The notes under the pieces were generated by a model that saw nothing but the letters and a program-made list of their open reading frames with translations, was not told the origin of the DNA and did no database searches. From Candidatus Omnitrophota bacterium (GTDB lineage: Bacteria > Ratteibacteria > UBA8468 > B48-G9 > JAFGKM01): a DNA stretch of 10,972 nucleotides. Where the stretch lies: NCBI GenBank assembly GCA_023819375.1, contig JAMWDI010000012.1, positions 1 to 10,972 of the forward strand, given 5' to 3'. How positions within the stretch are numbered: position 1 is the first letter of the stretch; each line of letters starts with the position of its first letter. Below, piece by piece: positions 1-10,972 of the stretch. Made by a program: the position numbers and the translations under genes.

Positions 1-1
1 G

Positions 2-439
2 AGAGTTGGTTTTGCGGTAGGGAATAAATATATAATAAAAGCGCTTGCAAAACTTAAAAGTTACTATGATTATGGTGTCTTTACTCCAATACAGGTTGCT
101 TCTATATGTGCTTTAAGGCTTGATGAAAAATATATTGAGCAAGTCAGAGAAACGTATAAGAAAAGGAGGGATGTCCTTGTTGATGGTCTTAATAGAATTG
201 GATGGTATGTAGAAAAACCAAAAGCAACTATGTACGTTTGGGCAGAAATCCCAGAAAAGTTTAAAAAAATGGGTTCTATGAAATTCGCTTTATATCTTCT
301 TGAAAAAGCAGATGTTGCTGTCTCACCAGGAATAGGTTTCGGTAAATATGGAGAGGGATATGTAAGATTTGCACTTGTAGAAAATGAAATGAGAATAAAA
401 CAAGCAATCAAAAATCTTAAAAAAATCTTTTCACAATGA
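2..439 (+). CDS. alaC: AlaC-like alanine aminotransferase, C-terminal part (5' end outside window)
   Basis: This is the last 145 residues of a fold-type I, PLP-dependent class I/II aminotransferase. The closest match I recall is the AlaC glutamate-pyruvate aminotransferase group, which interconverts pyruvate and alanine with glutamate as amino donor in the cytoplasm. The fragment opens with RVGFAVGN, which carries the phosphate-binding Arg that follows the PLP lysine; the lysine itself lies just outside the window. Next come [14 protein letters not shown], then [30 protein letters not shown] with the carboxylate-binding Arg, and a C-terminal helix ending in FSQ. All of these line up with the E. 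coli AlaC C-terminus as I remember it. Related LL-diaminopimelate aminotransferases are the main alternative. The gene stops 117 bases before the regulator, with no convincing terminator between them, and it is probably unrelated to the operon that follows. Confidence 0.88.
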
Positions 440-472: not shown

Positions 473-480
473 TGTATACA
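473..480. promoter_or_regulatory. Palindrome TGTATACA, candidate operator upstream of regulator 1
   Basis: This perfect 8-base palindrome lies 32 bases upstream of the -35 element of the regulator 1 promoter. The same palindrome, followed by AAAA and TTAATT-like sequence, lies 34 bases upstream of the -35 of regulator 2. AraR, which has the same GntR + LacI architecture as these regulators, binds TTGTACGTACAA-type palindromes, so an autoregulatory role is plausible. A half-site TGTATA also overlaps the -10 element (533-538). Function is inferred from conservation between two copies only. Confidence 0.5.
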
Positions 481-512
481 AAATTTTAATTATTTTAAAA
501 AATGAATAAATC

Positions 513-540
513 TTGACAAAATAAAAATTATTTGTATAAT
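513..540 (+). promoter_or_regulatory. Sigma-70-type promoter of regulator 1 operon
   Basis: A consensus -35 TTGACA (513-518) and a consensus -10 TATAAT (535-540) are separated by 16 bases. The -10 ends 16 bases before the ATG of regulator 1. A start of transcription about 7 bases downstream would leave a leader of only about 10 bases, so the message would be nearly leaderless. The second regulator copy has the same arrangement with the same 16-base spacer. Confidence 0.8.
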
Positions 541-556
541 AATTTATGAAGATAAA

Positions 557-1588
557 ATGAGAAGAGTACTTTTATGGTTTGAAATATATAAGGAATTAAA
601 AGAAGAAATAAACAAAGGCAGATATAAAAGTGGTGATAAATTTTTAAAAATTAAAGACATATGCAAGAAATTTAACGTAAGTGAGATAACAGCAAGAAGA
701 GTTTTGAACGAACTTGAAAGAGAGAAATTGATTATAAAAAAACAAAGGATTGGAACAATAATAAATAGAACAAATTTAAAACTTTTCTTTATTGTTCCTC
801 ATGTCTGGAATTTAAAAAACATATCCTCTTTACCTATTATTCAGGCAGAAGTTTTAAAAGGTATTTTTAAAAAAAGTGTTGAAGAAAATGTTGAAATTGA
901 ATTTGTTGATGAAAAAACATTTTTTAAAAATATTAAGAATGGAATTTATTTCCTTTTTTATCATAGTTTAGACGATAAAAAAGAGAAAGAAATTTTAGAA
1001 AAAATTTCTTCAAATATTGTAATAGTTCATTCTCCTGTTTCTATTAAAAATATCCATACAATTAGAGTAAATCTTTATAATGGCGCCTATATTGCAGTAA
1101 TTCATCTGATTGAGAGAGGTTACAAAAGAATAGGATTTATTACTGGTTCATTAAAAAATGAATGGTTTCTATTAAGATTTGAAGGATATCTATCTGCATT
1201 GAGGGAAAGGAAAATTGGATTTGATGTAAAATTTGTTAAAGAGACAGATGGAGAAAAAGAAGAAAATGACTGGAATGCCTTTGAAGAATTATTGAATTTA
1301 AAAAATCCACCAGATGCTATTTTCTGTGCCAATGATAAAAGAGCAATTCATATACTTGAATATTGTTATAAGAAAAATATAAAAGTGCCAGATGAAATAG
1401 GAATAATTGGATTTGATAATATACCAGAAACAGAAATAACAAATCCTCCATTAACAACAATAGAAACACATCTTGAAAAATTAGGAGAAAAGGCAATTGA
1501 ACTTGGAATTAAATTGACTACAGAAAAGATAAAAGAAACTCAAGATATAGTAATAGAACCAGAAATAATAATTAGAAAATCAACATAA
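557..1588 (+). CDS. GntR/LacI-type (AraR-like) transcriptional regulator, copy 1
   Basis: This 343-residue cytoplasmic repressor-type protein has a GntR winged helix-turn-helix at about residues 5-70. It includes YKELKEEI, a recognition helix in [14 protein letters not shown], and a wing around RIGTII. A LacI/periplasmic-binding-protein-like ligand domain follows at about 75-340, with [33 protein letters not shown] and [18 protein letters not shown]. This is the architecture of AraR, so a sugar effector is likely, but the ligand cannot be read from sequence. The ATG at 557 follows the -10 element closely and has no real Shine-Dalgarno, so translation is probably leaderless. It heads the operon: the pseudopilin starts 14 bases after its stop. 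From codon 41 onward it is identical at DNA level to the second copy at 9810-10841; residues 1-40 match only 24 of 40. Confidence 0.93.
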
Positions 1589-1719
1589 AAGGAGGTGAAA
1601 TTATGAAAAGGAAAGGTTTTACATTAATAGAATTACTTGTAGTAGTGGCAATCATAGCGATACTTGCAGCAATGCTTTTACCTGCTCTAAGTAAGGCACG
1701 TGAAAGAGCAAGACAGGCA
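677..1719 (+). repeat. Long direct repeat, copy 1 (regulator codon 41 to pilin codon 39)
   Basis: These 1043 bases recur at 9930-10972 at a constant offset of 9253. I read one mismatch, A at 1635 versus G at 10888, a synonymous TTA/TTG in pilin codon 11. The left edge is abrupt: immediately upstream, within the same gene, the copies are clearly diverged. The right edge is not seen because the window ends, so copy 1 may be longer. No transposase or inverted ends accompany it, so it looks like a gene-family duplication homogenised by recombination rather than an insertion sequence. Confidence 0.95.
1588..1598 (+). promoter_or_regulatory. Near-perfect Shine-Dalgarno of pseudopilin 1
   Basis: AAAGGAGGTGA matches the anti-Shine-Dalgarno tail of 16S rRNA over its whole core and sits 4 bases before the ATG at 1603. 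It begins at the last base of the regulator stop codon. It is far stronger than anything in front of the regulator, implying that the pseudopilin is translated at a higher rate. The second cassette has the identical site at 10841-10851. Confidence 0.85.
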
Positions 1720-2409
1720 GTATGTGTAAGTAATTTAAAACAAATAGGAATCGCTTTTTATATGTATATTGATGACTATGATGGATATTTCCCAAGAGCA
1801 GTCTATGGATGGAGTGGTCAATATATGGCTCACTGGCATGTTTTATTTTTAAGATTAGGATATTTAAAAAGAAAATCACCAACAAGTACTTACTTAAGTA
1901 GAAAAGATTTTCAACCTTTAATATGTCCATCTGCTCCAAATTTAAGGAAACCTTCTACAGATTTATATTCAATCCCGGGTTGGGATTATAGATACATTAG
2001 TTATGGATATAATATTTCTTTCATTGGTGGAAGTTCTGGTGTCGGAGGTTCATTATATCAACCAGCAAAATTATCTCAAATAAAAAAACCTTCCAAAACG
2101 ATACTACTTGCCGATTCACTTGCTGTTTACTATACAGGGGGTCCATCAGGAACAGTTAGTTCTTACGATGCAGGGTATTTTACTCTCTATCCATCTGCAA
2201 AGAATGCAGGAGTAACAGGAGTACCTCATGCAAGGCATTCACGAGTAGTTAATGTATTATGGTGTGATGGACATGTTTCCTCTCACAATGCTCCTTCAAG
2301 ACAAATTTATAGTGACGCACCTGAGTGGGAATGTTATCATCCAAGTTGCCTTGGAGATATATGGAGATGTCCCGAACCAGGAGAAAAGAGTTGGTGGGAT
2401 AGAGATTAA
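1603..2409 (+). CDS. Type II/IV pseudopilin with H-X9-DG motif
   Basis: This 268-residue pilin-like protein starts with a short basic leader and a class III prepilin signal, [20 protein letters not shown]. Cleavage is expected after Gly5, with the conserved Glu at mature position 5 and a hydrophobic helix to about residue 30. The region around residues 40-64 ([17 protein letters not shown]) is typical of prepilin-type proteins of planctomycetes, lentisphaeras and relatives. Near the C-terminus, H212 followed by nine residues and D222-G223 is the H-X9-DG processing-associated motif. Cysteines at 108, 221, 244, 249 and 256 could form disulfides or bind metal. After PilD-type processing it should be inserted in the inner membrane and may assemble into a surface or periplasmic pseudopilus. 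Sitting between a sugar-type regulator and secreted enzymes, it may help surface binding or export; this role is inferred. Confidence 0.93.
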
Positions 2410-2429
2410 ATCCTAAAAGAGAGATGGAA

Positions 2430-4847
2430 ATGCGAGTATTTTTATTTATGATTGTATCTTTTTTAATGTTTAGTTTTTTGAGTTTTTCACAAGAGATAAA
2501 GATTTTTGAAGAAACACATATAGAACCTGGAAGAGAAAAAATTTTAAAATTTAAAATTCCTGAAGAAACAGAAAAAGAAGTTGATTTTATATTTGAATTC
2601 AAGGCAAGGTTAGAAGCGCCCACCTATACAAAAGGTTTAAATAGTATGAAGATTTTTATTAACGAGAAAGAGATTGATTTGAAATATTTAGTAAATAAAA
2701 ATGAAAATATTATTGTTATGCCAGGTTGGACATATCCAACATATATTAGATTCTGGAGTGGATATTTTTTATTTAAAGCTCCTGATTTTAAAGAATTTCA
2801 AGAGAGCAATCAATTCAAACCTGCATTTGTAAACCCATATTTATTTCAATGGAGAATAAATGACTTTATTAAAGGAGGAGAAAATATTTTGAAAATTCAG
2901 CACACAAATAAACATATTAATGAAAAGATAATTGTCGCAGATGGGAAAATTTTTATAAAAGAAAGGGAAATAAAAAAAGTTGTAAAAGATAATTTAGAAT
3001 ATTTTGCCCCTCTAAATATAGAAAGACTCCCTTTGAAAGTAGAAGTAACTAAAGGCGGATCTATTGCAGTGAGTTTAAAAGAATTTAAAACAATAATAAA
3101 TTCCAAATATTCAATAGAAGGTGGGGGATGGGCAGAATTAAAAGAAAACGAATATTCAAATTTTAATAATATACAAGTAAAAAAGGAAGAGAATGATTTT
3201 AAAATATATTGTGAAGCAAATGATTTCAGTATTGAAAAAGAGATAAAGATAAAAGATTTATGTGTTGAAGTAAGAGAAAAATTAAAAAATAAAAAAGGAA
3301 GAATATTACCATTAATGCATAGACATTTTGTAGAACTTCCAGAATTACAAAGATTGTATCTTGGAGGGCAAATAATCCCTCAAAAAATAGGTGTTTGGCC
3401 TAATCCATCAAATCCAACAACAATATGTGTTGAGAAAAGAGGAGCAGTTGGTTTAATAGCACTTGATGACATTTTCAGGGTACATATTTGTCCTTTTGGT
3501 TCACATGGCATTTATGGTATTGCTGATAATGAACTAGTTATACCTCCTGAAAGCGAAATTAATATAAAATGGGCTATATTTTTAACAGACAAATCTGATT
3601 ATTATTCAATTATAAATTTAATGAGAAAATTTTTAGAAGTTAATTTTAAAATAGATGGTCCAATGGTTTTTATACATCCAAGAGAACCGAATACAAAATG
3701 GAGAACACATCCAAGAGAACTTCCAAACGTGGGAACAAGTATAGATGATTTAAAAAGTTATTTAATGAATAAAAGTGCAAAATTTGCCATTTCAGGTATT
3801 GGTGAAATAGGAAAATGGCAAGATTATAAGAACGAAATTCCTCTTGGTACAGCATTTCAGAAAGTTGTTGAAATAGAAAGATATAAAAAATTTTTCAGCA
3901 ATTTGAAAAAAGCATGTCCTGAAATTAAAACAGGAGTTTATTTTCACTGTTTTTTAGATGTATCAGAAGAAGCGCCAAGTAAGTTTAAAAATAGTAAAAT
4001 TCTTGATGAGAAAGGTAATCATATTGAATATGGATATGGCAGAAAAAGAAATATTCCACTTTTACTATATCTACCTACTTTGGATAATTCTTTTGGAGAA
4101 GAAATCAAAAAAAATGTTGATATTATAATTGACAAAATTGGAGCAGATGGTATTTATTGGGATGAATTTGAGTATTCTTATGTAAAATATCATTATGGCG
4201 AACCACATGATGGAGTAAGTGCTGATATAGAATGGGGAACAAATAAAATAAAAAGATTGAAAAGTTCTGTCACTCTTTTATCACAACCATGGAGAATGAA
4301 GATTGTTGATGAAATAGGCCAAAAAGGGAAATTTATGATATTTAATTTTCCACCACATACAGAAACAAGTTTAGAAATTAGTAAAAAATATAAAGTGCCA
4401 AGATTTGTAGAAAATGGTGGGACTACTATTCCCTGTATTAATACTCATTTATATACACCAATAGCACTTGGTAACCATACTTTTGAACAAGAAGAAGAAG
4501 ATAGTTATTGGTGGATGTTAAGAGTGCTAAATTATGGTTGTCTTTATTACTGGTATCATGATGGCATTTGGGCAGATTATCCTACTATTACAAAATATAT
4601 GTTCCCAATCACTCCCCTTGAAATTGGTCCAGGATATATAATTGGAAAGGAAAGAATATTGACTGTTAAAAGTGGTTATTTTTCATTTGGAGATATGTCT
4701 AACGGCGAATTACATTTTTTTGGAAAAGAAGGGAGAGAAATTAGAAAAGATTATAAAATCATTATAAAGGAAGGAAAAAAATATTTTAAAATAATTCTTG
4801 ATAATAATGAAAGTTGTGTAATAATTAAAAAGGGGGAGACAAAATGA
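2430..4847 (+). CDS. Secreted TIM-barrel glycosidase-like protein, family not recognised
   Basis: This 805-residue protein is probably exported. I prefer the ATG at 2430 over the in-frame ATG at 2424, because AGAGAG at 2418-2423 is then 6 bases upstream instead of touching the start. This gives a signal peptide MRVFLFMIVSFLMFSFLSFS followed by QEIKIFEE. Residues about 22-200 look like a beta-sandwich with FIN, LFKAPDF and NDFIKGGENILKIQH, the style of an accessory jelly roll. Residues about 200-400 look like a second beta-rich region. From about 410 a barrel-like part carries GVYFHCFLD (502-510) and DGIYWDEFE (573-581), where D578 and E579 are candidate catalytic residues at a strand end. A small beta region closes the protein. 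A glycoside hydrolase function is inferred from fold-like motifs and neighbours; substrate and family are unknown. It follows the pilin after 20 bases and overlaps the next gene by 4. Confidence 0.75.
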   Translation: MRVFLFMIVSFLMFSFLSFSQEIKIFEETHIEPGREKILKFKIPEETEKEVDFIFEFKARLEAPTYTKGLNSMKIFINEKEIDLKYLVNKNENIIVMPGWTYPTYIRFWSGYFLFKAPDFKEFQESNQFKPAFVNPYLFQWRINDFIKGGENILKIQHTNKHINEKIIVADGKIFIKEREIKKVVKDNLEYFAPLNIERLPLKVEVTKGGSIAVSLKEFKTIINSKYSIEGGGWAELKENEYSNFNNIQVKKEENDFKIYCEANDFSIEKEIKIKDLCVEVREKLKNKKGRILPLMHRHFVELPELQRLYLGGQIIPQKIGVWPNPSNPTTICVEKRGAVGLIALDDIFRVHICPFGSHGIYGIADNELVIPPESEINIKWAIFLTDKSDYYSIINLMRKFLEVNFKIDGPMVFIHPREPNTKWRTHPRELPNVGTSIDDLKSYLMNKSAKFAISGIGEIGKWQDYKNEIPLGTAFQKVVEIERYKKFFSNLKKACPEIKTGVYFHCFLDVSEEAPSKFKNSKILDEKGNHIEYGYGRKRNIPLLLYLPTLDNSFGEEIKKNVDIIIDKIGADGIYWDEFEYSYVKYHYGEPHDGVSADIEWGTNKIKRLKSSVTLLSQPWRMKIVDEIGQKGKFMIFNFPPHTETSLEISKKYKVPRFVENGGTTIPCINTHLYTPIALGNHTFEQEEEDSYWWMLRVLNYGCLYYWYHDGIWADYPTITKYMFPITPLEIGPGYIIGKERILTVKSGYFSFGDMSNGELHFFGKEGREIRKDYKIIIKEGKKYFKIILDNNESCVIIKKGETK

Positions 4848-7800
4848 AAAAGATTTACATTTTAGTTTATTTATTATTTTTTCTAATTCTGAAATCTGAA
4901 AATAGAGCAACTGTGATTAAACCTATAAAATTAGATTTTTCTCGGTATGGAATTATTAGTGATACCTATGATGTTGAGCAAATTATCTCAATGAATTTAG
5001 AAATAGAAAAGAAAATTTCAGAAAGTATAGATAATTCTCTATTATTAATATTTGGAGAACAAGTGAAAGAAGATGTTTTTGATAAAATTTTTTCGTCCTC
5101 TATTATCAAACTTTCAATAAAATCCCTTCTCAAAAGAGGCGGAGCAATTTTCTGGGGACCAACATCGTGGGATATTCTTGTTCGTATCCCTAAAAATATG
5201 AAGGATTTTTTTAAAGAAATAGGTGCACATCTTATTACAATTGAAAATTATAAAGGAGAAACACCGGATTATTATTATACTGGTATTGGTAATCCCGATT
5301 TTGAGCATCCATTTATTACAACTCCTAATGATCTTAGAAAATTATCTAAAAAATGGCAAGGAGCAAATTCTATAAGATATTTTGATAAATTACCTGAAAA
5401 TTGTAAAGTTTTACTTATTGATAAAGATAAAAAAGTACCTCTTATGATAATTCAGGAAAATATACTTACTAATGGTAAAATTATCAATTCTTACTGCTAT
5501 AGTATAATGAGAAGTGCTGAAGATGCTTTTTGGGAGAATTTAATTATCAATTTGTATGGTAAGAGAGAAAAGATATCTAAAAGGGAAGTTGTAGAAAGCA
5601 AACTATTTGGAGGGAATATTATAAGTCTAACAGAAAAAGAGAATACAGAAGAATATAAAGTAATATACCCAAAAAAGGCAAAAAAATCTCCAGTTATAGA
5701 TGGAATTTGTGAAGAAATTTGGAATATAGTTGACTGGGTTGAACTTGTTGAATCAAAAGAAGGGAAAGTGCCTAAAAAGAAGACATGGGTGAAAATTATT
5801 TATGATGATGAAAATTTTTATGTTTTTTATAAATGTGAAGAACCAAATCCATCAAATTTAAAAACATTAACAAAGATAAGAGATGGAGAGGTATGGAATG
5901 ATGACTCTGTAGAACTTTTTTTAAAAACAGAAGAAAATCTTTATCATTTTATAGTAAATGCAGAGGGAGTTACCTATGATGCAAAAAATCAAAATTCCCA
6001 TTGGAATCCAGAATACAAAATATCTACAAGAAAAGGAGATGAATACTGGACAGTTGAATTACAAATTCCTTTTGAAATTTTAGAAACAAATATTGAAAAA
6101 AGCCCAGTAATTAAGATTGGTTTATGTAGAAACGAACAGCAACTTAAAGAATATTCCTCATTATTACCTGCTCCAAAAGGATTTTATGACCCTAATTCAT
6201 GGGGGTTCTTATCCTTTATTTCAGAGAATGCATTTTTGAGCTATTTGAGAAATAAAAAATATGAGAAGAAAAAATTATTATATGAGGGTGGGTATTTAAT
6301 TTGGTATGATAATCCTTATAAAACAAAATATTCAAATACTCTACCTGAGAAGATGGAAGAAATAAAGAATTTAAAAATTATTCTTGCAAAAAATGAAAAA
6401 GAATGTAGTAATATTTTAATAACAAATTTTACAGATGATAATTTAATATTTAGAATAGAGCCAGATATAGATGGGGTGAAAGACCAAAAAGGCAAAATTT
6501 ATGATTTTTATCAAATTGTCACTTTAAAAGAATCAATTGCCCGTTTAAATCCTTATAAAGAAAGACAATTTGATCCACTTGTAAAATTAAACGAAGGGAA
6601 TATAATATCAGTGCCTCCGTATGAAACAAAACAAATATGGTTAGATATAAAAGGAGAATTGCCATCCGGTAAATATAATACATCTATTTCTTTTGTTCCT
6701 GTTAATAATCTTTTTAAAGAAAAAAAAGTTGATCTTGAAATTGAAATAGTTAACTTTGAGTTTCCTAAGAAATTACCTATAATTGGTTATGCTTATGGCC
6801 CATATGATATGACCTGGGCTAAAAACAAAAGAAGTGCATATTTTGCAGTTTGTCCAGAATATCATCTTTCATATGTGATGCTTTATTTTCCATTAAATGC
6901 TATTAAAAAAGACGAGAAAGGCAAAATTTATATTTCAAACGATAAAAAGGATTATTTTAGATGGTTTGTTGATGAAATAACAGGAAAAGAAATAATAGAA
7001 GAAAAACTTGCATTAAAATATGTAGAAGGATGGTTTTATAGTTATGGAATATATCTTGAATTTAATAGACGTTTAGTATCTCTGGGATTACCTTTAAAAA
7101 AAGATACTGTATATTATGAAGTTGATATATCAAAAGAAGAATGGGAGAAATTGTTTAAGGAATGGCTATACAAATGGTTTACGTTTTTAAAAGAAGAAAA
7201 TATAGATTTTAAAAAATTCTTCATTCCACTCCTTGATGAGCCAAGAGATTTCATTGCAGATAAATTGTTTGAAGTAGGGAAAATTATAAAAGAAATAGAA
7301 CCAAACTGTCAAATAACTTTAAATCCAGCAACTTGGACATCTTTTGAATTAATAGAAAAATTGAATCCTGTTGTTGATCTATGGGTGCCATGGGAAGTAA
7401 GATTAATTTCTCGTGGAGATATTTCAAAAAAAGAATTGGAATTTTATCAGAAAAATGAAAAAATGTTTGCCACTTACTTATGTAGCCCTTCTGGAATTAT
7501 TTTGCCTTTAATTTCTTATTATCGTTTAAGAGGAATAAGGGCATATTTAATGAAGACATCTGGAATAATTTTATGGGGTTTCAATTCCTGGAGAGGAAAC
7601 GACTGGAATGAATTTGACGATAAAGAGATAGATTATCATCTTTTTTATCATGGTGATAAAGGACCTATTCCCAGTATCAGAGCAGAATCTTTTAGAGAGG
7701 GCTTTGAAGATTATTATATATTGCTGTCAGTAGAAAAGAAACTAAAAGAAAAGTATGTAGATGAAATAGCAAAATTAATTTCAAGAGAACATTTAGAAAG

Positions 7801-7876
7801 ATTAATAAAAGAAGAAAATGCCGATTTAATTTTAGAATGGAGGGAAAAGCTATTAAAATTTTTAGGAGAATCATAA
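4844..7876 (+). CDS. Secreted CBM9-like / DUF4091 (GH123-like) protein
   Basis: This 1010-residue protein begins with a basic N-terminus and hydrophobic stretch (YILVYLLFFLIL), a probable signal peptide with no obvious cleavage site. Residues about 25-250 resemble a Rossmann-like ThuA/glutamine-amidotransferase-like module (LLKRGGAIFWGPTSW, PFITTPNDL); this is tentative. Residues about 275-458 are a CBM9-like sugar-binding domain with PVIDGICEEIW, IIYDDENFYVFYKC and WNDDSVELFL. Residues about 500-640 are the beta-sandwich usual before DUF4091 (LPSGKYNTSISF, FEFPKKLP). The C-terminal barrel has FFIPLLDEPRD with D798-E799, matching the Asp-Glu pair of GH123-type hexosaminidases, then ILWGFNSW and the DUF4091 signature FREGFEDYYIL (950-960). 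A secreted glycosidase on an amino sugar or complex glycan is the best guess. Its ATG overlaps the upstream TGA by 4 bases and has a GGGGGAG ribosome site, so it is translationally coupled. Confidence 0.85.
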   Translation: MKKIYILVYLLFFLILKSENRATVIKPIKLDFSRYGIISDTYDVEQIISMNLEIEKKISESIDNSLLLIFGEQVKEDVFDKIFSSSIIKLSIKSLLKRGGAIFWGPTSWDILVRIPKNMKDFFKEIGAHLITIENYKGETPDYYYTGIGNPDFEHPFITTPNDLRKLSKKWQGANSIRYFDKLPENCKVLLIDKDKKVPLMIIQENILTNGKIINSYCYSIMRSAEDAFWENLIINLYGKREKISKREVVESKLFGGNIISLTEKENTEEYKVIYPKKAKKSPVIDGICEEIWNIVDWVELVESKEGKVPKKKTWVKIIYDDENFYVFYKCEEPNPSNLKTLTKIRDGEVWNDDSVELFLKTEENLYHFIVNAEGVTYDAKNQNSHWNPEYKISTRKGDEYWTVELQIPFEILETNIEKSPVIKIGLCRNEQQLKEYSSLLPAPKGFYDPNSWGFLSFISENAFLSYLRNKKYEKKKLLYEGGYLIWYDNPYKTKYSNTLPEKMEEIKNLKIILAKNEKECSNILITNFTDDNLIFRIEPDIDGVKDQKGKIYDFYQIVTLKESIARLNPYKERQFDPLVKLNEGNIISVPPYETKQIWLDIKGELPSGKYNTSISFVPVNNLFKEKKVDLEIEIVNFEFPKKLPIIGYAYGPYDMTWAKNKRSAYFAVCPEYHLSYVMLYFPLNAIKKDEKGKIYISNDKKDYFRWFVDEITGKEIIEEKLALKYVEGWFYSYGIYLEFNRRLVSLGLPLKKDTVYYEVDISKEEWEKLFKEWLYKWFTFLKEENIDFKKFFIPLLDEPRDFIADKLFEVGKIIKEIEPNCQITLNPATWTSFELIEKLNPVVDLWVPWEVRLISRGDISKKELEFYQKNEKMFATYLCSPSGIILPLISYYRLRGIRAYLMKTSGIILWGFNSWRGNDWNEFDDKEIDYHLFYHGDKGPIPSIRAESFREGFEDYYILLSVEKKLKEKYVDEIAKLISREHLERLIKEENADLILEWREKLLKFLGES

Positions 7877-7894: not shown

Positions 7895-8589
7895 ATTCAA
7901 AAAATAAAGAAAAATTATTTATTAGTAATTTTTATCTTTTACTCTCTTTTTTTTCTTTGTATATCTTTAACAGGAAATTTTAAGATATTTGTCAAGAAAT
8001 TTTATTTACCTTATATTTTGATTGGCATTTTGATTTTACTATTCCTTTCAATCATAAAAACAAAAAGAAGATTAAAAAATTTAAAGAAATCAATGATTAT
8101 GATATATTTTCTTTTATTATATTTTTGTTCCCTCTAATTTTATTTATAATTGCAAAACCAACGAGTTTACCAACCTATGCTGCCTTAAAAAGAGGGATAA
8201 AAACAGAATTTTCAAGTGAAGATGTATTAAAGTCATTGCAGGAAAAAATAGAGATTGAAGGAAAATATAAAAAATTGACTATAAAACAATTACTTGCTTT
8301 TTCAAAATCAAAACCAGATGAAATAAATGATAGAGATATTTCAGTTGAAGGAATGGTATATAAAGGAGAAGGGAAAGAAAAATTTACATTGATAAGATTT
8401 TTAATAACCTGTTGTGCTGCTGATGCTACACCTCTTGGAATAGAAGTTAAATATGAAAATATAGAAGAATTGAAAAATGAAGAATGGGTAAAAGTAAAAG
8501 GTAAAGTAAAAATAGAGGATGGGAAAATAATAATATATGCAGAAAATATAGAAAAAATCAACCCACCATCTGACCCTTATTTATATTAA
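7895..8589 (+). pseudogene. DUF1980/TIGR03943 (YcgQ-type) membrane protein, frameshifted
   Basis: The intact C-terminal part (frame of 8125-8589) matches B. subtilis YcgQ in design: a hydrophobic FLFPLILFIIA, then ISVEGMVYK, RFLITCCAADATPLGIEV, EEWVKVKGKV and the final PPSDPYLY. This frame is open back to 7984 and reads KKFKEINDYDIFSFIIF before the membrane segment. The two N-terminal membrane helices expected for the family are in another frame just upstream (YLLVIFIFYSLFFL and LPYILIGILILLFLSI, about 7913-8052). One missing A in the run at 8062-8066 would join them into a single protein of about 230 residues. The first part has no ATG, GTG or TTG start; ATT at 7895 after AAGGATAGG is the only reasonable candidate. 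The family usually has a YcgR-type permease partner, which is not present here. Either a pseudogene or a sequencing error; a TTG start at 8125 for a short protein is unlikely. Confidence 0.72.
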
Positions 8590-8590
8590 T

Positions 8591-9647
8591 TTATTTAAAA
8601 ATGACTTCTTTCCCTTTTTCTGAACTTATATATATACCTTCAAGCATTTTTATTACTTCCAAACTTTCTTCAGGTTTTACTGGAACTTCTTTATCTTCCT
8701 TAACACATTCAAAGAAAATTCTTATTTTTTCATGATAAGGTGGATTGTCTGGTAAAAGGTCAAATCTTAATGTAATGTCTTGGAAGAACGCCATTTCTCT
8801 CTTTTGCAAGTTTTCCATCAGGCCATCTTATTCCACCTTCTGTACCAAATAAAGTTGTAGAAAAATCCTCTATTTTTTCCATATTTGCAAGGAAACTACA
8901 GGTTAAATTTAAACTTCTACCATCTGCAAATTTAATAAATCCTGCAGCAAAATCCTCTATATTATATTTCTCTCTATCCCACTCCCCATAATCCTCTTAT
9001 ATCTTTTCTTTTTGTAAGTTTTGTTAAAGTTACACCTGTAACTGAATATACTTTGGGACAACCCATAAACCAGTAAGTTAAGTCAAGAATATGAACTCCA
9101 ATATCAAACATAAGGCCACCACCTGAAAGATTTTTATCAATAAATGTATCTCTTGCTGGTAAAAACCTTCTTTTTAATGCATGTGCAATTGCAAAATATA
9201 TTTCTCCAAGTTCTCCATCATCAATATATTTTTTAAGAACTATGGAATCCTTTCTAAATCTTTGATGTTGTGTAGCCATTAATTTTTTATTTTCTTTTTT
9301 TGACCATTTAATCATATCCTCTACTTCTTTTACACTTGCTGCAAGTGGTTTTTTTCACAAATAACATGTTTTTTTGCTTTAAGTGATTCAATTGTTGCAG
9401 GATGATGAATCTTATTTGGTGCACATACATCAACTATATCAATCTCCTCAATTTTTAACATTTCTTTATAATCATCAAAAACATATTTTATACCAAATTC
9501 ATTTTTAGCAATATTTCTAACTTGTTCAGATGGGTCAGAAATAGCAATTACTTCAACATCTGGTATTTTTTTCCAGCCAGGATAATGTGTCATCCTTGCA
9601 ATTCCTCCAAAACCAATAAATCCAACTAAATATTTCCCATTTTTCAT
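8591..9647 (-). pseudogene. Gfo/Idh/MocA family oxidoreductase with three frameshifts
   Basis: Joined across frames this is a normal-length (about 350 residues) NAD(P)-dependent sugar dehydrogenase-type protein. The N-terminal Rossmann part has VGFIGFGGIAR (GxGxxA) and VEVIAISDPS. The first frame breaks after VICEK in a T7 run (9349-9355), exactly at the conserved EKP motif; the next frame supplies PLAASVKEVEDMIKW and continues to GGGLMFDIGVHILDLTYW with the conserved Asp and His. It breaks again at the C4 run 8984-8987, after RGLWG. The third frame reads EWDREKYNIEDFAAGFIKF, LFGTEGGIRWPDGKL and NGVL, and breaks near 8781-8787. The fourth frame gives QDITLRFDLLPDN and IRIFFECVKEDKEVPVKP to the stop. 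The start is the ATG at 9647, behind AAGGGAGGGA; an upstream in-frame ATG at 9713 lacks such a site. Its stop is one base from that of the DUF1980 gene. Substrate unknown; likely sugar or inositol-like. Confidence 0.85.
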
Positions 9648-9729
9648 CTTTCCCTCCCTTTTTAAAATTTTATTTATTTTTATCATAAAAACAAATTTTG
9701 TTATTAGATGCAATTTTTAAAAAAAATTA

Positions 9730-9737
9730 TGTATACA
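9730..9737. promoter_or_regulatory. Palindrome TGTATACA, candidate operator upstream of regulator 2
   Basis: The same palindrome as at 473-480, here 34 bases upstream of the -35 element of regulator 2 and in the divergent region shared with the oxidoreductase gene, whose ATG is 82 bases away. The regulator could therefore act on both genes. A half-site TGTATA again overlaps the -10 (9792-9797), 62 bases downstream of the palindrome versus 60 in copy 1. Confidence 0.5.
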
Positions 9738-9771
9738 AAAATTAATTTTTAAATAATATTTGAATAAAAAC

Positions 9772-9799
9772 TTGACAAATTCTAAAATATGTGTATAAC
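9772..9799 (+). promoter_or_regulatory. Sigma-70-type promoter of regulator 2
   Basis: TTGACA (9772-9777) and TATAAC (9794-9799) are separated by 16 bases, as in copy 1. The -10 ends 10 bases before the ATG at 9810, so transcription would start only about 4 bases before it, giving an essentially leaderless message. Confidence 0.75.
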
Positions 9800-9809
9800 T
9801 AATAAAAGA

Positions 9810-10841
9810 ATGGCAAAACTAATTTTATGGAAAATGATTTATAAAGAATTAAAAGAAGAAATAAAGAGTGGTAAATATAAAGAAGGTGACAGATTTTTGA
9901 AAATTAATGATTTATGTGAGAGATTTAAAGTAAGTGAGATAACAGCAAGAAGAGTTTTGAACGAACTTGAAAGAGAGAAATTGATTATAAAAAAACAAAG
10001 GATTGGAACAATAATAAATAGAACAAATTTAAAACTTTTCTTTATTGTTCCTCATGTCTGGAATTTAAAAAACATATCCTCTTTACCTATTATTCAGGCA
10101 GAAGTTTTAAAAGGTATTTTTAAAAAAAGTGTTGAAGAAAATGTTGAAATTGAATTTGTTGATGAAAAAACATTTTTTAAAAATATTAAGAATGGAATTT
10201 ATTTCCTTTTTTATCATAGTTTAGACGATAAAAAAGAGAAAGAAATTTTAGAAAAAATTTCTTCAAATATTGTAATAGTTCATTCTCCTGTTTCTATTAA
10301 AAATATCCATACAATTAGAGTAAATCTTTATAATGGCGCCTATATTGCAGTAATTCATCTGATTGAGAGAGGTTACAAAAGAATAGGATTTATTACTGGT
10401 TCATTAAAAAATGAATGGTTTCTATTAAGATTTGAAGGATATCTATCTGCATTGAGGGAAAGGAAAATTGGATTTGATGTAAAATTTGTTAAAGAGACAG
10501 ATGGAGAAAAAGAAGAAAATGACTGGAATGCCTTTGAAGAATTATTGAATTTAAAAAATCCACCAGATGCTATTTTCTGTGCCAATGATAAAAGAGCAAT
10601 TCATATACTTGAATATTGTTATAAGAAAAATATAAAAGTGCCAGATGAAATAGGAATAATTGGATTTGATAATATACCAGAAACAGAAATAACAAATCCT
10701 CCATTAACAACAATAGAAACACATCTTGAAAAATTAGGAGAAAAGGCAATTGAACTTGGAATTAAATTGACTACAGAAAAGATAAAAGAAACTCAAGATA
10801 TAGTAATAGAACCAGAAATAATAATTAGAAAATCAACATAA
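9810..10841 (+). CDS. GntR/LacI-type (AraR-like) transcriptional regulator, copy 2
   Basis: This 343-residue paralogue has the same domains as copy 1: GntR winged helix at about 5-70 and a LacI-type sugar-binding domain at about 75-340. The start is the ATG at 9810 (MAKLILWK), which aligns with the Met of copy 1. The longer reading from 9789 would begin upstream of the -10 element and is rejected. Residues 1-40 differ from copy 1 at 16 positions; residues 41-343 are identical, with no DNA difference that I can see. The recognition helix and wing lie in the identical part, so both proteins should recognise nearly the same operator and the same ligand. A second pseudopilin follows after 14 bases, as in the first cassette. 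Confidence 0.93.
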
Positions 10842-10851
10842 AAGGAGGTGA
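10841..10851 (+). promoter_or_regulatory. Near-perfect Shine-Dalgarno of pseudopilin 2
   Basis: AAAGGAGGTGA, identical in sequence and spacing (4 bases to the ATG at 10856) to the site in front of pseudopilin 1. Confidence 0.85.
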
Positions 10852-10855
10852 AATT

Positions 10856-10972
10856 ATGAAAAGGAAAGGTTTTACATTAATAGAATTGCTTGTAGTAGTG
10901 GCAATCATAGCGATACTTGCAGCAATGCTTTTACCTGCTCTAAGTAAGGCACGTGAAAGAGCAAGACAGGCA
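10856..10972 (+). CDS. Pseudopilin, second copy, N-terminal 39 residues (cut by window end)
   Basis: The fragment contains the basic leader, the KRKG|FTLIE prepilin peptidase site, the whole hydrophobic helix and the start of the KARERARQA segment. It is identical in protein sequence to residues 1-39 of the pseudopilin at 1603, with one synonymous change (TTG for TTA in codon 11). Whether the globular domain also matches, or diverges to fit different downstream enzymes, cannot be seen here. Confidence 0.9.

Follow-up and report, generated by a model that had tools for sequence, protein, structure and literature searches.

Probable recent homologous exchange between the regulator–pseudopilin heads of two old paralogous operons in a Candidatus Omnitrophota genome

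Genes and features of the window

The stretch of DNA analyzed here (the window; 10,972 nucleotides) is the entire contig C7 of a 13-contig, 1.73-Mb genome of a Candidatus Omnitrophota bacterium. It includes two cassettes, A and B, in which a regulator gene precedes a pseudopilin gene (Table 1). The frameshifted gene on the reverse strand, which we take to be a Gfo/Idh-like oxidoreductase, is 78% identical at the DNA level to a gene that is intact on contig C9. This intact relative adjoins a hydrolase gene, and contig C10 keeps a 5' remnant of that hydrolase. In our reading, the start of regulator B that is homologous to that of regulator A would be 9810 and not the listed ATG at 9789; translation from the latter, which sits immediately ahead of a -10-like box, runs through that box.

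Table 1. Coordinates of genes, predicted control regions, repeat copies and assembly overlaps in the window
Feature	Positions	Strand	Remarks
Left assembly overlap	1–127	+	Identical to C10 right end and C8 left end (reverse complement); inside aminotransferase gene
Class I/II aminotransferase, 3' part	2–439	+	Open frame across the C8 junction; truncated in the C10 join
Regulator A promoter region (predicted)	473–556	+	Candidate operator TGTATACAAAA at 473–483; putative TTGACA and TATAAT boxes
Regulator A	557–1588	+	GntR-type HTH and LacI-type ligand domain; 557–676 diverged from B, identical from 677 onward
Putatively homogenised block, copy A	677–1719	+	One mismatch to copy B, at 1635
Pseudopilin A	1603–2409	+	Prepilin N-terminal motif, DUF1559 start, H-X9-DG end
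807-aa protein, signal-like start	2424–4847	+	802-aa relative behind regulator and pilin in species G001
1010-aa protein, signal-like start	4844–7876	+	GH123 catalytic and CBM9-like domains
DUF1980_C / TIGR03943 protein	8125–8589	+	Domain matches
Frameshifted oxidoreductase	8591–9713	-	78% DNA identity to intact C9 gene
Regulator B promoter region (predicted)	9730–9809	+	Same candidate operator at 9730–9740; otherwise diverged from A
Regulator B	9810–10841	+	9810–9929 diverged from A, identical from 9930 onward
Putatively homogenised block, copy B	9930–10972	+	Pairwise comparison with copy A
Right assembly overlap	10846–10972	+	Identical to C10 left end and C9 end (reverse complement); pseudopilin gene start, continuing into two different pseudopilins

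Chimeric GntR/LacI regulators are exemplified by AraR of Bacillus. Like AraR, regulators A and B combine a GntR-type HTH with a periplasmic-binding-protein-like ligand domain, and they match both PF00392 and PF13377 above the cut-offs. The ligand domain resembles the solved structures of PurR, RbsR, CcpA and the arabinose repressor (3tb6 is among the matches). Unlike AraR, however, both regulators are encoded next to a pseudopilin operon, and the best matches among solved structures are ligand domains of the PurR and LacI type. The pseudopilin of cassette A was matched by PF07963, PF07596, TIGR02532 and TIGR04294, which together represent the prepilin N-terminal and H-X9-DG C-terminal motifs. 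Literature searches for Omnitrophota pseudopilins and for DUF1559 prepilins returned no papers. Throughout the genome, 59 prepilin-motif loci and 19 Peripla_BP_3 regulators were identified, and 15 of the 19 regulators are located directly 5' of a pseudopilin gene, as against an expectation of about 0.4% for each. The order regulator, pseudopilin, secreted protein is recurrent across the genome, with an HTH of either the GntR or the LacI type.

The promoters of A and B are still alignable, though diverged, and have in common the candidate operator TGTATACAAAA and a TTGACA/TATAA pair. This putative operator is conserved upstream of regulators A and B and of a third GntR/LacI paralog on contig C11, where a full palindrome, TTTTGTATACAAAA, is found near 38318–38331 and resembles the sites preceding A and B. 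Within this genome, the candidate operator was found outside genes only upstream of these three regulators, and the reading of a dispersed regulon was rejected on this ground.

The identical block and the age of its two copies

Base-by-base comparison at an offset of 9253 revealed an exact repeat of 958 bp (677–1634 and 9930–10887), followed by a single A/G mismatch (1635/10888) at a third codon position of the pseudopilin, which is synonymous, and by 84 further matching bases (1636–1719) with no difference. The first-pass annotation had reported this near-perfect duplication with one synonymous mismatch, along with a preceding 120 coding bases encoding 24 of 40 identical residues, and both statements are borne out; at the nucleotide level, the 120 bases are identical at 89 positions (74%). 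Over the remaining 303 codons, the two regulators are identical at 909 of 909 nucleotides. Identity starts at regulator codon 41, within conserved HTH-coding DNA and close to where the presumed recognition helix begins, and on this left side the block is bounded by diverged homologous sequence. Divergence had been noted for the N-terminal helices; the divergent part takes in the promoter too. Since the promoters have also diverged, the edge of identity is not an effect of a protein-domain boundary.

When the A–B differences were shuffled along the alignment, the longest identical run averaged 97 bp with a 99.9% quantile of 209 bp, as against the 958 bp observed. None of 5000 shuffles reached the observed run, and chance alone was thus rejected. 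What was found is a tract of near-identity within otherwise diverged paralogs, a pattern expected of ectopic gene conversion.

The age of the two copies was assessed by comparison with the ortholog from G001, a species of the same genus. In the first 40 codons, nucleotide identity is 0.74 between A and B, 0.73 between A and G001, and 0.68 between B and G001. In the rest of the regulator it is 1.00 between A and B and 0.70 between A and G001, with 180 of 303 residues identical in the latter pair. At their 5' ends, A and B are about as distant from each other as each is from the G001 ortholog; this short measure (one related species, 120 bases) supports the view that A and B are old paralogs, about the age of the species split, and that the block would have been homogenised later. 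G001 has a regulator, a pilin and the 802-aa relative of the window's 807-aa protein in the same order, and the C10 operon is also present in this species, with 79% DNA identity. G001 contig C90 begins just inside the pseudopilin gene of its C10-type operon, base 1 lying in the first codons; an identical partner of this contig was looked for and not found. In species G012, the two cassettes are diverged. On these two results, the same homogenisation in other species is unsupported.

The position of the break, at about the beginning of the presumed recognition helix, would be in keeping with purifying selection on a common ligand domain while the N-terminal helices diverged. The first-pass annotation considered this less likely than recombination, and we find it scarcely credible: 909 of 909 identical bases are not explicable by selection, the identity extends to synonymous sites and to the intergenic gap, and the divergence of the same region between A and its G001 ortholog indicates that it is not that constrained.

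Contig ends and copy number

The ends of C7 overlap exactly with other contigs: its first 127 bases are shared with C8 (reverse complement) and C10, and its last 127 with C10 and C9 (reverse complement). Judged from the contigs themselves, such exact 127-base overlaps are the mark of a k=127 assembly graph. The type of assembler was deduced from these overlaps, and the use of metaSPAdes, which collapses small strain-variant differences (PMC8021871), is an assumption; small differences between copies of the block may have been collapsed by the assembler. The comparison was made from assembled contigs, and the block exceeds the 127-base graph word, so the assembler would have had to resolve a loop.

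Because C7 ends on the right in a 127-base overlap and fork, the right edge of the repeat is not visible within the window. The match had been described as running to the window end, with a right-hand edge to be sought beyond 10972. Identity does reach 1719/10972, but this end is an assembly break and not a boundary of the repeat. Beyond it, the C10 continuation matches the copy that begins at 677 for 31 more bases (to 1750), whereas the C9 continuation diverges at once. On the right, pilin homology itself fades within about 190 bases.

On the left, the aminotransferase frame is uninterrupted when C8 is joined to C7, and is truncated, after the hydrolase gene remnant, when C10 is joined. The flanks provided by C8 and C10 are unrelated. 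According to the graph, parts of C7 are present twice. If all contigs share one chromosome, graph balance would place C7:1–676 and the last bases of C7 in two copies and the block in no fewer than three, at the head of three cargo operons. The middle of C7 (1720–9929) may be single copy. A circle made of C7 and C10 would be a further admissible topology. Moreover, the tail of C10 (8181–8328) is 91% identical to C9 sequence shortly before the intact oxidoreductase gene of that contig, and the frameshifted C7 oxidoreductase adjoins regulator B. On this basis, we suggest, without pressing the point, that two units of the order regulator, pilin, cargo, hydrolase, oxidoreductase formed an older array and that one of them might have been broken by the cassette-A segment.

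The junctions at the left end, with their unrelated flanks, indicate that recent segmental duplication does occur here. The block might accordingly owe its origin to a recent duplication of the regulator–pilin head before another cargo operon, after which one copy would have received a new promoter and initial 40 codons from a third paralog. This is unlikely, as two events are required, of which the later one must keep exact register across promoter and HTH, and no third paralog with a B-like 5' end was found in the genome, the next closest having 39% protein identity. Conversion between old paralogs is favored because it needs one step.

It must also be asked whether the assembler merged or misjoined one real copy, or differing copies. 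In favor of this, the contig that makes up the window has 127-base overlaps at its ends, and the graph word is shorter than the repeat. However, both left junctions lie in distinct sequence with intact reading frames, the difference at 1635 was retained (although SNPs could still be hidden inside the block), and de Bruijn assembly draws each 127-base word from reads, so both junctions should exist. Regulator B is an intact gene that remains in frame across the 9929/9930 junction, which makes a plain misjoin less likely, and an artefact of either kind appears improbable overall.

Probable homologous exchange here and conversion in known systems

The results from the remaining contigs indicate that C7 is not alone in this signature. 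Eleven pairs of contig ends form 127-base forks. The glnA paralogs on C1 and C4 (ends C1_L/C4_R) are identical over the 127 bases that they share on the 3' side, where G003 has 0.905 identity, while in the 5' part of glnA the C4 copy has 0.90 identity to species G003 versus 0.80 to its C1 paralog. The C12/C13 fork (C12_R/C13_L) is presumably, from our reading of its translation, a glnA 3' end, and the intervening stretch is absent from the bin. The paralogous two-gene operons at the ends of C2 and C8 (C2_L/C8_R; loci L017 and L032) share a 651-bp identical run with diverged homologous DNA on both sides, together with extra identical patches of 117 and 53 bp; the paralogs of the 807-aa protein at these ends are mosaic. 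Two more paralog pairs, one CBM9-like and one of membrane proteins, are mosaic as well. The occurrence of a sharp intragenic switch in other pairs supports homologous exchange as the origin of the block.

Four other contig ends (C3_L, C11_L, C12_L and C5_L) fall inside a repeated gene for a multi-pass membrane protein, which runs on into two different TPR-like C-termini, and one further repeat is transposase-like by translation. Both MutS and MutL were found in this genome and in 20 relatives, and loss of mismatch repair was rejected as a cause.

In toto, we consider it probable that A and B are old paralogs which were recently homogenised over ~1 kb by homologous exchange, be it gene conversion or a crossover within homology. 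The earlier proposal, that paralogous cassettes recently underwent gene conversion or unequal crossover, is supported both by the G001 comparison and by the recurrence in other pairs. In the proposed sequence of events, each paralog would have headed its own operon of operator/promoter, GntR/LacI-type regulator, pseudopilin and secreted carbohydrate-active proteins, and homologous recombination would recently have replaced the sequence of one copy by that of another, either through RecA-type gene conversion or through a crossover of equal local effect. The tract would extend from regulator codon 41 through the ligand domain to the conserved pseudopilin start, ending where pseudopilin likeness stops. 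Gene conversion and crossover leave the same local pattern; the mechanism and the direction of the exchange are inferred.

Because the ligand domain, the presumed recognition helix and the operator-like site are common to them, the operons headed by the block would be predicted to answer the same ligand, possibly a sugar. This suggests that, in this lineage, copying of the operon head might place operons for secreted carbohydrate-active proteins under a single sensor. A wider speculation, which we hold to be doubtful, is that the regulator–pilin head serves as a constant module that recombination sets before variable pseudopilin bodies and variable cargo operons. By exchange within the conserved DNA of the regulator and of the pilin start, the lineage would then reassign operons to an inducer, and this would belong to a genome-wide partial homogenisation of paralogs despite intact mismatch repair genes. 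Several contig breaks in this MAG may likewise correspond to partially homogenised paralogs, and short-read MAGs of such genomes can mislead on copy number and paralog identity.

The A/B pair appears to be a genuine and well-supported case of an already known kind of event, gene conversion between paralogs within a genome. Such conversion has been described between the duplicate tuf genes of Salmonella (PMC5485169) and between the rRNA operons of E. coli (PMC8022953), which serve here as comparison cases for an event deduced from sequence. In these systems, the homogenisation of paralogs within one genome is non-reciprocal, with tracts limited by the bounds of homology, as would also be the case for A and B. 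The tuf and rRNA copies, however, are nearly identical over their full length, whereas A and B have diverged to about 74% and were homogenised only in part. Concerted evolution of paralogs in prokaryotes includes long-lasting, recurrent cases in 26 genes (PMC6053082); in contrast to these, the A/B event looks recent and partial, and is known from one species.
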